NCBI GenBank assembly: GCA_001872455.1
Contig: MNXJ01000071.1
Location: 1-55,829 of the forward strand
Length of the DNA: 55,829 nucleotides
Direction of reading: 5' to 3'
Source: Anaerolineae bacterium CG2_30_57_67
GTDB taxonomy: Bacteria; Chloroflexota; Anaerolineae; Anaerolineales; Villigracilaceae
Below are positions 11,559 through 54,289 of this stretch, one piece after another (the stretch's first letter is position 1; each line of letters begins with the position of its first letter). A program made the position numbers and the translations under genes. The notes under the pieces were generated by a model, which made no database searches, had not been told where the DNA came from, and worked only from the letters and a program-made list of their open reading frames with translations.

Positions 11559-12716
11559 ATGCGCCAAGTGGCTGTTTTGGGAATTGGACAAACCAAAGTT
11601 GACGAACACTGGGACAAGGCCCTTAAAGAGCTGGTTCTGGAAGCCGCATTTGCCGCCCTTCAGGAGGCCGGAATTGACCGCCCCGACACGCTGTACGTGG
11701 GCAACATGCTCTCGCCCATCGTCAGCGGACAAAATCACCTGGGAACCCTGGCCGCCGATTGGCTGGGACTGCGCGGCATCGAAGCCGCCAAAGTCGAAGC
11801 CGCCTGCGGCTCGGGAGCGGCAGCCTTTCGCGCCGGGCTGATGGCAGTCGCCTCCGGCGAAGCCGATTCGGCGCTGGTGATCGGCGCCGAAAAAATGAGC
11901 GACCGCGCCGGGCATGACGTGACCGCCGCGCTGGCAACCGCCGCCGACGCCGATTACGAAGTAGACCAGGGCGTTTCGTTTGTCGGGCTAAACGCGCTGG
12001 TCATGCGCCGCTACATGCACGAATACGGCTGGAAACACGTCGATTTTGCCCCGTTTTCGATTAACGCCCACGCCAACGCCCTGCACAATCCATTTGCGCG
12101 CCTGCACGAAGCGATTACGCTGGAAAAGTTTGAAAAATCGAGCATGGTCGCCACGCCGATTAATTTGCTGGATGCTTCGCCGACGGGCGATGGCGCCGCC
12201 GCCATGATTCTCGTCCCCGCCGAGAGAGTTTACTCGCTGCCGGGGCGCAGAAAAATCATCGTGGCTGGTTCGGCCTCGGCCACCGACCGGCTCGCCATCC
12301 ACTCGCGGAGCGACCCGCTCTGGCTAACGGCGGCCTACGCTTCGGCGCAGAAAGCCTATCAGATGGCCGGAATCTCGCCCGCAGAGGTGGATGTTTTCGA
12401 GCTGCACGACGCTTTTTCGATTATGACGGCGCTCTCGCTGGAGGCGTGCGGCTTCGCGGAACGCGGTCAGGGGCCGCGTCTCGGCCTGGAAGGAGCGACC
12501 GCCATCGGCGGGAAAATTCCGGTTTGCACGCGCGGCGGGCTGAAGGCGCGCGGGCATCCCGTGGGCGCAACCGGCATGTATCAACTGGTGGAAGTCGTTC
12601 AGCAGTTGCGCGGCGAATGTGGCAAAACCCAGGTGGAGGGCGCGCGCATCGGTCTGGCGCAAAATATCGGCGGCAGCGGCGCGACAATTTTGACGCACGT
12701 ACTGCAGGCAGTCTGA
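11559..12716 (+). CDS. Thiolase, SCP2/archaeal acetoacetyl-CoA type (catalytically complete)
   Basis: A 385-residue thiolase of the SCP2-like family used by archaea to make acetoacetyl-CoA. All expected catalytic features are visible: nucleophile Cys83 in VEAACGSGAAAF, the HD pair in ELHDAFS, and His333 in ARGHPVGATG, with a C-terminal NIGGSG loop. Such thiolases usually act with a DUF35 zinc-ribbon/OB protein and, in archaea, HMG-CoA synthase. No DUF35 gene lies next to it, but one does at 49.3 kb beside a homologue that has lost the Cys and this His. Beta-oxidation or mevalonate roles are both possible. ACGGAG precedes the ATG by 6 bases. Confidence 0.85.
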   Translation: MRQVAVLGIGQTKVDEHWDKALKELVLEAAFAALQEAGIDRPDTLYVGNMLSPIVSGQNHLGTLAADWLGLRGIEAAKVEAACGSGAAAFRAGLMAVASGEADSALVIGAEKMSDRAGHDVTAALATAADADYEVDQGVSFVGLNALVMRRYMHEYGWKHVDFAPFSINAHANALHNPFARLHEAITLEKFEKSSMVATPINLLDASPTGDGAAAMILVPAERVYSLPGRRKIIVAGSASATDRLAIHSRSDPLWLTAAYASAQKAYQMAGISPAEVDVFELHDAFSIMTALSLEACGFAERGQGPRLGLEGATAIGGKIPVCTRGGLKARGHPVGATGMYQLVEVVQQLRGECGKTQVEGARIGLAQNIGGSGATILTHVLQAV

Positions 12717-49251: not shown

Positions 49252-49665
49252 CTATGCTTGGCTTGGCATCTTCCAGGCCGGTCTAAACTTATACCCGTAC
49301 ACAATCACCCCGCGTTCGTCACCGTCGTTGCGCAGTTTGCGCGTGACCATCTCTACCGGCATGCCAATTTCCACCGGTTGTTCGCCCAGGTCAGTCAACT
49401 GTGCGGTAATCATCGGACCTTCGTCCAGCTTTACCAGTGCAATTGTATAAGGCACAGTTTGGTCATAGCCGGTTGGCGCTTCGTAAATTGTCGTATACGA
49501 AAACACCTCCCCTTTTCCACTGAATGCAAAAGTCGTCTTGGCCTCGCCGCCGCAAACCGGGCAAACATCGCGCGGTGGAAAGATTTTTACGTCGCAATGC
49601 GGGCAAACTTCGCCTACCAGGGCATAACGTTGTTGTTTTAAGCGCCAATGGCGTGAAATTTCCAT
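49252..49665 (-). CDS. DUF35 zinc-ribbon/OB-fold protein (thiolase partner)
   Basis: A 137-residue protein with a rubredoxin-like zinc ribbon (C21, C24, C35, C38 in CPHC and CPVC) and a C-terminal OB fold (about 45-130) containing FSYTTIYEAP. DUF35 proteins bind acyl-CoA and bridge SCP2-type thiolases with partner enzymes; in archaea one links acetoacetyl-CoA thiolase to HMG-CoA synthase so that the intermediate is channelled. Last gene of the operon, 75 bases after a thiolase homologue, with HMG-CoA synthase two genes further upstream, which supports the same role. GGAGATAA precedes the ATG. Confidence 0.9.
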   Translation of the reverse strand: MEISRHWRLKQQRYALVGEVCPHCDVKIFPPRDVCPVCGGEAKTTFAFSGKGEVFSYTTIYEAPTGYDQTVPYTIALVKLDEGPMITAQLTDLGEQPVEIGMPVEMVTRKLRNDGDERGVIVYGYKFRPAWKMPSQA

Positions 49666-49740: not shown

Positions 49741-50913
49741 CTAAATATCGATTCTTTCCAGAATATGCGTCACGGCAGTGGATGCCGGGCCGCCCAGAGA
49801 TTGAATCATGCCCATCTGAACTCCGTTTAATTGGTTTTTTCCTGCCGCTCCCCGCAGTTGAGTCGCCGCTTCGACGGCCTGATAGACGCCGGTAGCACCC
49901 CCGGCAAAACCACGCGCCTTCAGCCCGCCCATTGTCGCGCACGGGAATTTCCCATTCAGCGCCAGCGCGCCTTCAGCGGCCAGTTTCCAGCCCACACCGC
50001 GTTGAGCGAAACCGTTGGCTTCCAGCGAAAGCGCCGCATAAATGCTAAAAGAGTCGTGATATTCAAAAAAATCAATTGCGTCCAGTGAAGCGCCGGCCTG
50101 CTTCAACGCTCGCGCAGTTGCCAGGTGCGCCGCATCGAACCAGAGCAAATCGGCCCGGTCGTGCAGGGCCAGCGTATCCGTCGCCACACCCGCCCCAGCA
50201 ATGCGTACCAGCGGATGTTGAAAATTTTTCGATAATAGGTCGCGTCGGGTGAGCAAAACCGCCGCCGCGCCATCTGCATTTGGGGCGACATCGAACAGAT
50301 TGAGCGGTTCGCAGACCATTTCGGCTCTGGCGTACGTTTCGGGTTTGATTGCTTTCTGAAACATGGCAAACTTGTTGCCCGCGCCATGCGCGTGCGCTGT
50401 CAGCGCAAAACCAGCAAAGCCGTCGGCGGGAACCCGGTATTCGGTCATGTAGCGCCGCATTACCAATGCCGCCTGCGCCGCCAAAGTCAGCCCAGCCACA
50501 GCCTCGTAATCGCTGTCGGTGGTGGTTGCCAGCGCTTCTTCCACACCAAAACCAACCTGATCGGTCATTTTTTCCACGCCGACTACCAGCGCCACGTCTA
50601 CCAGCCCGCTCTGGATGGCGAGATAGCCCTGACGCAACGCCGCCCCGCCCGACGCCCCCGCCGCCTCGACGGTGACGGCTTCCACGCCGGTCAGGTCGGA
50701 AAAATCGGCTACCAGCGCCCCCAGATGCGCCTGCCGTGAAAGGATGGGCGCGAACATATTGCCCACAAACAGCGCCTGCGGTCTCAGCCCGCCGCTGTCG
50801 CTCAGCGCCTGACGCACCGCCTCGGCGGCCAAACTGCGCAAGGAACGATCCCAATGTTCGCCAACTTCGGTTTGCCCAATTCCTGCAAGAATAACGTCGC
50901 TCATAAAACTCAC
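49741..50913 (-). CDS. SCP2-type thiolase homologue lacking catalytic Cys and His
   Basis: A 390-residue protein aligned along its whole length with the thiolase at 11559-12716. Where that enzyme has Cys83 (VEAACGSG), this one has Gly86 (VEAAGASG, codon GGG), and where it has His333 in GHPVGATG this one has Phe336 in GFAGGATG. The HD pair (EYHDSFS) is kept. It therefore cannot use the ordinary thiolase mechanism. It may be a structural partner of an active thiolase, or a different DUF35-dependent C-C enzyme such as the SCP2-like aldolases of steroid side-chain breakdown. GTG at 50913 overlaps the upstream stop (GTGA); an ATG at 50904 is possible. The frame is intact, so it is not decayed. Confidence 0.88.
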   Translation of the reverse strand: MSFMSDVILAGIGQTEVGEHWDRSLRSLAAEAVRQALSDSGGLRPQALFVGNMFAPILSRQAHLGALVADFSDLTGVEAVTVEAAGASGGAALRQGYLAIQSGLVDVALVVGVEKMTDQVGFGVEEALATTTDSDYEAVAGLTLAAQAALVMRRYMTEYRVPADGFAGFALTAHAHGAGNKFAMFQKAIKPETYARAEMVCEPLNLFDVAPNADGAAAVLLTRRDLLSKNFQHPLVRIAGAGVATDTLALHDRADLLWFDAAHLATARALKQAGASLDAIDFFEYHDSFSIYAALSLEANGFAQRGVGWKLAAEGALALNGKFPCATMGGLKARGFAGGATGVYQAVEAATQLRGAAGKNQLNGVQMGMIQSLGGPASTAVTHILERIDI

Positions 50914-51305
50914 TTTTTTGAGAAAAGAAAGGAAATGGTTTCACCACTGGCAGAATCCAGCCGCACGCGGACGGGTTCACGCAAAATCAGGTCGCTTTCG
51001 GCGGGAGCCTGCATCGTCAGGCTGACGGGGTACTGCGCTCCGCCCGGCACGCTGACGAAGGCGTGCCCTTCGGCGTTGCTTTTGCTGCCGAATTCTGTCC
51101 CGCCCTCCAGCCGGACAATCAGGGTGGCGTTTTCGATGGGCGTGTCTGCCGCGTCCAACTGGCCGTTGGCGTTTTCATCCAGCCAGGCTTGCGCCGAAAA
51201 GAAGGAATCGCTTTGCGCCGGGGGCGGGGTTGCGCTGGTTTTCGCCGCACAACCGCCGAGGGCGACAGCCAAAATCAGCATAAAAACGATTTTTATCCGT
51301 TTCAT
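50910..51305 (-). CDS. Small lipoprotein with SdrD-B-like domain
   Basis: A 131-residue lipoprotein: signal peptide ending ALGGC (lipidated Cys19), a short Pro-rich linker, and one beta-sandwich of the SdrD B/Cna-B kind. The stretch AWLDENANGQLDAADTPIEN fits the calcium-binding DxNxNGxxDxxD pattern, followed by SNAEGHAFVSVPGG. Such domains are surface stalks or carbohydrate-facing modules. It sits between HMG-CoA synthase and the thiolase homologue and overlaps the latter by 4 bases, an odd place for a surface protein in a biosynthetic operon. Confidence 0.8.
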   Translation of the reverse strand: MKRIKIVFMLILAVALGGCAAKTSATPPPAQSDSFFSAQAWLDENANGQLDAADTPIENATLIVRLEGGTEFGSKSNAEGHAFVSVPGGAQYPVSLTMQAPAESDLILREPVRVRLDSASGETISFLFSKK

Positions 51306-51338: not shown

Positions 51339-52415
51339 CTATTTCATCGTAATCTTGCCGCGATAGCGGGCGTAGGTGGCGTAATCAATTTCTGTGCGCC
51401 GGGCGATGTATTCCTGCGTTTTGACTGCCAGGTCGCGCCGCGCGTCAATTTTCTCGGTCACGGTGATGTCCATCGCATCTGACCCGGCGCCAGAGCCAAA
51501 AGATGCCAGCAAAATGCGGTCACCCGGCTCGGCGATGTCGAGAATAGCCGTCAATCCGATGATGGATGCCCCTGAATACGTATTGCCGATGACGGGCGAG
51601 AGTAACCCCGGCGCGGTTTGTTCTGGCGTGAAGCCGAGCATTTGCGCCGCCCTTTGTGGAAATTTGGCGTTGGGCTGATGAAAGACTGCCCAACGATAGT
51701 CTTTGGCGCTCACGCCAAGTTCTTCCATCAGCGTTCGTGAAGACGATAAAATATGCTGAAAGTAGGCCGGTTCGCCGGTGAAGCGCACGCCATGCTCTGG
51801 ATATTTCTGATATTCGCGCCGCCAAAAGTCGGGCGTATCGGTGACGTAGGAGTAGGTGGCGTTGATGGTTGCCAGACCATTTTCGGCTGGCCCCAGCACG
51901 AAGGCCGCGCCGCCCGCCGCAGCAGTGTATTCGAGCGCGTCGCCGGGTTTGCCCTGGGCGGTATCCATGCCAATCGCCAGAGCGTACTCAGCCATGCCAG
52001 AGCCGACAAAACCGATGGCGGCGACAATCGCCTCGGTGCCAGCCTTGCAGGCGAATTCCCAGTCACCGGCCTGAATGTGCGGCACCGCGCCGATGGCTTC
52101 AGCCACGACGGTGGAGGTCGGTTTGACGGCGTAGGGATGCGATTCCGAGCCGACCCACACGGCGCGCAATTCTTGCGGGTCAATTTGCGCCCGCGCCATG
52201 GCGTTGCGCGCCGCCTCGATGGACATGGTAATCACGTCCTCGTCCAGGCCGGGGACGGCTTTTTCTTTAATCGGCAGGCCGCCTTTGCCACCGGCCCACA
52301 CACGGGCAATTTCGCGCGCTGGAATGCGGTAACGCGGCACATACGCTCCGTAGCCGGTAATGCCGACGGGGCGGTTGGGCTTGAGAAGGGTGTGGGAAGA
52401 TTGAGAGGTTGTCAT
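51339..52415 (-). CDS. Hydroxymethylglutaryl-CoA synthase, archaeal type
   Basis: A 358-residue enzyme that condenses acetyl-CoA with acetoacetyl-CoA to HMG-CoA. It begins [15 protein letters not shown], has the nucleophile Cys123 in [24 protein letters not shown] with the catalytic His, and [16 protein letters not shown]. The size and these blocks match the archaeal/UPF0219 group rather than the eukaryote-like bacterial MvaS. HMG-CoA reductase lies two genes upstream and DUF35 and a thiolase homologue downstream, which fits the archaeal thiolase-DUF35-HMGS arrangement. The product feeds isoprenoid synthesis. Confidence 0.92.
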
Positions 52416-52443: not shown

Positions 52444-52938
52444 TTATCTTTTCCATAAATCCGTCAGACCGATGATGCCAGTGGAAAGGCAGAGACAGGT
52501 GGGCAGGAAAACTATCAGACCGAGGAATACCCCCTCCGCCAGACCGGCATGACGCTGTTCGAGGGTGCTTTGAGCGGGTTGGGCTGGGTTGTAATAAACG
52601 CTGACAGCGGTATGTATCGGATAACGAGCGAGAACAGCTGCAGCTTCCTTTTTCCAAAAAATAGGGGCGAATGAGAAATTAATGCGATCGCTTTCGTATT
52701 TGGTTCCATTAACTTGATAGGTATAGGTGATGTGAGGGCGCGCCCTGGAGCTTTTCACGCCTTCATAGATGATTTTACTGGTTTGGATGGCGCCTGGTAC
52801 GCTGGCCCAATTGCGACTCTGCCGCGCCAATCGCCAGGCTTGTATCTGTTCAAACAGGTTGCGCAGGGCCAAATAGGCAAACAAGAGTCCGATGGCAACC
52901 AGCATCAGGGCGGTAACTGTGGAGAGGATGTTTTCCAT
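52444..52938 (-). CDS. DUF3592 membrane protein
   Basis: A 164-residue protein with one N-terminal helix (about residues 8-28), a soluble beta-rich DUF3592 domain (ITYTYQVNGTKYESDRI and VSVYYNPAQPAQSTLE are family-typical), and a C-terminal helix (about 136-158). The domain likely faces outside. Function of DUF3592 is unknown. It lies 28 bases before HMG-CoA synthase and 70 after HMG-CoA reductase, in line with the operon. Confidence 0.85.
   Translation of the reverse strand: MENILSTVTALMLVAIGLLFAYLALRNLFEQIQAWRLARQSRNWASVPGAIQTSKIIYEGVKSSRARPHITYTYQVNGTKYESDRINFSFAPIFWKKEAAAVLARYPIHTAVSVYYNPAQPAQSTLEQRHAGLAEGVFLGLIVFLPTCLCLSTGIIGLTDLWKR

Positions 52939-53008: not shown

Positions 53009-54289
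<1,281 letters not shown>

Follow-up and report, generated by a model that had tools for sequence, protein, structure and literature searches.

The locus described here raises the question of why a mevalonate operon would keep a thiolase that has lost the residues of thiolase chemistry. It lies in a stretch of 55,829 nucleotides (hereafter the window) of contig MNXJ01000071.1 from Anaerolineae bacterium CG2_30_57_67, in which a homologue of the SCP2-type thiolases adjoins an archaeal-type HMG-CoA synthase (HMGS) and a DUF35 protein. We refer to this homologue as the pseudothiolase, and to counterparts that have lost catalytic residues as dead copies.

The pseudothiolase and its operon

The features of the operon, and of an intact paralogue elsewhere in the window, are as follows.

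49252–49665, minus strand: DUF35 protein (zinc ribbon and OB fold), Pfam zf-ChsH2 and OB_ChsH2_C, closest solved structure 6esq_E
49741–50904, minus strand: pseudothiolase, 387 amino acids from ATG, Pfam Thiolase_N and Thiolase_C_1
49906–49908, minus strand: TTT codon of Phe336, at the position of the GHP-motif His (paralogue alignment, codons and relatives)
50056–50058, minus strand: His286 of the HDAF-type motif, retained in the pseudothiolase and variable among relatives
50656–50658, minus strand: GGG codon of Gly86, at the position of the nucleophilic Cys (paralogue alignment, codons and relatives)
50910–51305, minus strand: predicted lipoprotein of 131 amino acids between HMGS and pseudothiolase, an open reading frame with homologues in the same place
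51339–52415, minus strand: archaeal-type HMGS with Glu91, Cys123 and His246 intact, TIGR00748 above cut-off, closest solved structure 6esq_I
52444–52938, minus strand: DUF3592 protein
53009–54289, minus strand: HMG-CoA reductase (HMGR), PF00368 and TIGR00532
11559–12716, plus strand: intact paralogous thiolase with Cys83, His283 and His333, about 39 kb from the HMGS operon and in the orphan clade of the tree

The initial annotation described a 390-residue protein at 49741–50913. The reading frame is indeed full length, its start is more likely to be the ATG at 50904 than the GTG at 50913, as relatives begin at the ATG position. We have kept residue numbers counted from the GTG, which are three higher than from the ATG. 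The same annotation reported Gly86 in place of the nucleophilic Cys and Phe336 in place of the GHP His, in a protein otherwise collinear with the thiolase at 11559–12716. Codons and alignment bear this out: the paralogue has TGC for Cys83 (11805) and CAT for His333 (12555) at the matching sites, and the two proteins align without a gap over 385 residues with 48% identity.

With Gly86 and Phe336 the pseudothiolase lacks residues expected of a working thiolase. Its HDAF-type motif reads HDSF, and further near-invariant positions of the intact copies are altered (Asn148 to Ala, Pro337 to Ala, Val338 to Gly and Asn372 to Ser). It falls below the curated cut-offs for acetyl-CoA acetyltransferase (NF053570, 316.5 against 600 bits) and for a thiolase subfamily (NF004720, 391.4 against 420 bits), the latter being passed by the intact paralogue with 445.4 bits. 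The SCP2-type thiolase fold is present along the whole length of the protein. The AlphaFold2 model has a mean pLDDT of 90.5 and a pTM of 0.92, and its best structural match is 6esq_A (Z 60.1, rmsd 1.5 over 383 residues). In the archaeal thiolase/HMGS/DUF35 complex (6ESQ) this chain is the thiolase, and the entry is within the two best solved sequence relatives for all three operon products. Fold and gene context suggest that the pseudothiolase is the thiolase-fold member of a similar assembly, in which it is predicted to bind.

The predicted lipoprotein has no match in a Pfam search. It occupies the same spot in many operons of the window's family, though not in others.

Loss of catalytic residues in Chloroflexota

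A scan of genome contigs from 84,980 species, with one genome per species, found 80 relatives, and the Cys is lost in all but one of those where it could be read. Larger samples were then taken within Chloroflexota from the window's order, class and phylum, giving 273 locus records with archaeal-type HMGS in view; some of these share a genome and many of the named genomes are metagenome assemblies. The Cys is missing in 228 records, both residues are intact in 44, and one has the Cys with Asn for the His. Seven residues replace the nucleophile in dead copies (G, D, E, N, S, Q and A), and the GHP His position is occupied by F, N, D, E, Y, S or the unchanged H. Intermediate states occur in both directions, with the Cys lost and GHP kept in G271, G405, G301, G276 and genus g30, and with GHP lost and the Cys kept in G306. 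In every one of the 273 readable records the adjacent HMGS has retained Glu-Cys-His; three more records are partial. Among copies without HMGS in view 42 of 55 are intact, most of the others being dead copies whose loci are short or truncated.

Because the same losses recur in well over a hundred genomes, chance and sequencing error are excluded, the latter having already been thought unlikely in the initial annotation. Relatives with equal losses also rule out local decay, a change peculiar to the source genome, which the initial annotation had named as grounds for refuting its reading. The alignment and tree of Chloroflexota thiolases beside HMGS, which that annotation had proposed, reveal several independent losses.

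The tree was inferred without the catalytic columns. Most dead copies form one large clade, which takes in the window's order together with further orders of its class and also other classes, and there are separate losses elsewhere. A careful tree of 56 rows has five changes; bootstrap trees have four to six (5–95% range), none has only one, and well supported branches force at least three. A single origin of the dead copies is rejected by the AU test (p = 0.0135), and families f74 and f107 each contain an intact copy and a dead one that pair as supported sisters. The catalytic residues have been lost at least three separate times in Chloroflexota, with the protein kept intact. The dead copy of the single-contig genome G042 (L339) stands out by a branch length of 2.0, which is very long and may reflect faster evolution or a shift in role.

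Purifying selection acts on the dead gene. Within the genus its dN/dS is 0.07–0.18, compared with 0.06–0.19 for the intact paralogue and 0.03–0.06 for HMGS, with dS near saturation. Of the 112 positions near-invariant in intact copies, 54 remain near-invariant in dead ones, and release of constraint is greater in the four catalytic motifs than elsewhere (Mann-Whitney p 0.017), an enrichment that is modest. When conservation was compared between intact and dead copies, only Ala87, beside the former Cys, and the replacement of Ser by Thr at 143 were newly fixed in the dead group, and no newly fixed polar residue was found.

A second partner has also lost a feature. In a set of loci outside the class (L229–L238, L247–L253 and L258) the DUF35 protein lacks its four zinc-ligand Cys, while the HMGS catalytic residues are kept. 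This loss goes with dead thiolases of the G-S/T-D pattern and a few near relatives.

Co-occurrence with HMGS and other thiolases

No dead copy was found among the complete matches in HMGS-less genomes that were followed up (G100, G115, G231, G280, G295, G413 and others), several of which carry intact thiolases. Linkage between HMGS and thiolase is not universal. HMGS stands without a linked thiolase in some genomes, from families f104 and f105 as well as G414, each of which has a thiolase of SCP2 type elsewhere. In f104 the dead copy and HMGS are on different contigs in four of four genomes, and L297 shows the HMGS without a linked thiolase. Two further loci (L289 and L290, in G472 and G359) have HMGS followed by a DUF35 that matches in two pieces, by frame change or insert, with no thiolase after it; the sole SCP2-type thiolase of each genome is intact and unlinked. 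In family f2, HMGR, HMGS and DUF35 are followed by an intact orphan-type thiolase, and the dead copy is absent. Genome G008 (L161, 1733–5516) has HMGS, a dead thiolase, DUF35 and an intact thiolase in tandem, which suggests how the arrangement arose and may be the ancestral arrangement for the orphan paralogue.

The source genome contains two close SCP2-type thiolases, three classical thiolases, one DUF35 and one HMGS, where the PF01796 and TIGR01930 counts are of profile matches only and classical thiolases are counted irrespective of their catalytic residues. All 126 dead-copy genomes checked have another thiolase, a classical one in 125 and an intact orphan instead in G122, the search for classical thiolases having covered families other than f104. 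Eight other tested genomes are without a classical thiolase, and in each of them the HMGS operon carries an intact copy. The association between dead copy and classical thiolase (Fisher p 4e-5) ignores shared ancestry and we do not take it as proof; it is a weak test because most intact-copy genomes (31 of 39) also have classical thiolases.

A probable structural role for the retained subunit

The closest known system is the archaeal complex, in which DUF35 joins thiolase and HMGS (PMC12329534) and the CoA site is built from residues of all three proteins (PMC6392133). It shares with the Chloroflexota operon the three types of protein, the thiolase fold and an HMGS with intact catalytic residues. 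It differs in that its thiolase keeps Cys85. With neither the Cys nor the GHP His, the pseudothiolase would not be expected to make acetoacetyl-CoA for direct channelling.

The PhlABC Friedel-Crafts acylase (PMC6392133) also has thiolase-like, DUF35-like and HMGS-like subunits. One of its two condensing subunits is without catalytic residues, and this subunit is thought to be necessary for assembly. It is the mirror image of the Chloroflexota case: the HMGS-like PhlA is dead and PhlC keeps Cys88, whereas here HMGS is intact and the thiolase has Gly at that position. Other thiolases show parts of the pattern. The best sequence match among solved structures is Pyrococcus furiosus PFC_04095 (PDB 7YVY), with 48% identity in the structural alignment, but it keeps the Cys and the GHP His. 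In the alignment the thiolase-like ST0096 of Sulfolobus tokodaii (PDB 4YZO) has Ser at the Cys position, although it keeps GHP, and is a possible parallel case in archaea.

We consider it likely that the pseudothiolase is a pseudoenzyme subunit, an inactive thiolase fold that would complete an assembly of HMGS and DUF35. The thiolase-fold subunit would no longer make acetoacetyl-CoA. Archaeal-type HMGS would work within a thiolase/DUF35/HMGS assembly with all three proteins lining the CoA site, which would account for retention of the subunit. Acetoacetyl-CoA would be supplied by the paralogue at 11559 and by classical thiolases, and HMGS would take it from solution. The operon copy would then be freed from chemistry with its structural duty kept, in a presumed change from channelled to free acetoacetyl-CoA. 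If HMGS keeps its dependence on the shared site, the thiolase subunit would have to stay even where its chemistry has gone. HMGS thus probably needs the dead thiolase as a structural partner while other thiolases do the chemistry. A more active part for the subunit is conceivable, and we put it forward tentatively: it might bind free acetoacetyl-CoA from other thiolases in the shared CoA site and hand it to HMGS, or control HMGS, and the repeated loss of thiolase chemistry would then mark the point at which sealed channelling gave way to an open but regulated entry into the mevalonate pathway.

Other explanations have to be set against a structural subunit. The dead protein and an intact paralogue could together form a heterodimer or heterotetramer that serves HMGS with one DUF35, the dead subunit docking the active one. 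The source genome, with its single DUF35 and HMGS and two close SCP2-type thiolases, would fit this, as would the tandem in G008. However, in about 20 genomes of the order a dead copy occurs with classical thiolases only and no intact SCP2-type paralogue, which disfavours obligate pairing, and we regard a mixed oligomer as unlikely. Slow decay of an operon passenger drifting to loss could be read from the very long G042 branch and from an internal stop in a few matches (G084, G038 and G039). It is highly improbable: nearly all copies are open frames, dN/dS is well below 1, and the gene is kept across the depth of a phylum and also when unlinked, the unlinked dead copies of f104 speaking against a passenger in particular.

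The fold might alternatively have been repurposed as a DUF35-dependent aldolase or another lyase that uses other residues, as in the steroid aldolases Ltp2-ChsH2(DUF35) and Sal-Shy(DUF35) (PDB 6OK1 and 9MYR), which combine a thiolase fold and DUF35 with a rebuilt active site. In Sal, Gly occupies the position of the lost Cys and the enzyme acts with a DUF35 domain (PMC12329534), and some relatives of the pseudothiolase have Tyr at the HDAF His position. In Ltp2 and Sal it is the Tyr of YDxF/YDCY that carries out retro-aldol cleavage, whereas the pseudothiolase has His there and the dead group as a whole takes ten residues (H, Y, F, D, S, T, N, C, W or A). The absence of any newly fixed polar residue argues against a new enzyme, as do the variety at the nucleophile position and the gene's continued place beside HMGS and HMGR, where nothing points to a pathway for a new substrate. 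This reading therefore has little probability. The initial annotation had offered both roles, a scaffold subunit and an aldolase-like enzyme; the aldolase is disfavoured, and the scaffold is supported at the level of sequence by retention with HMGS, by purifying selection and by constraint released more near the active site, a physical complex being presumed.

Isoprenoids are essential. The DXP route is absent from members of the class Chloroflexi (PMC3857490), and in them the mevalonate entry must therefore still work. A literature search, with many subscription papers outside its reach, found no report of a dead thiolase in an HMGS operon, and thiolase goes unmentioned in the eLife study of the mevalonate pathway in Chloroflexi. 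Family resemblance would label such genes acetyl-CoA acetyltransferases, which would mislead pathway models and attempts at expressing a Chloroflexota mevalonate operon. Channelling of an unfavourable intermediate is the explanation given for the archaeal complex; across much of the Chloroflexota the thiolase half has been disabled on several occasions, and the protein has stayed. The sister intact and dead copies of f74 and f107 offer a direct test of channelling against dependence of HMGS on its partners.
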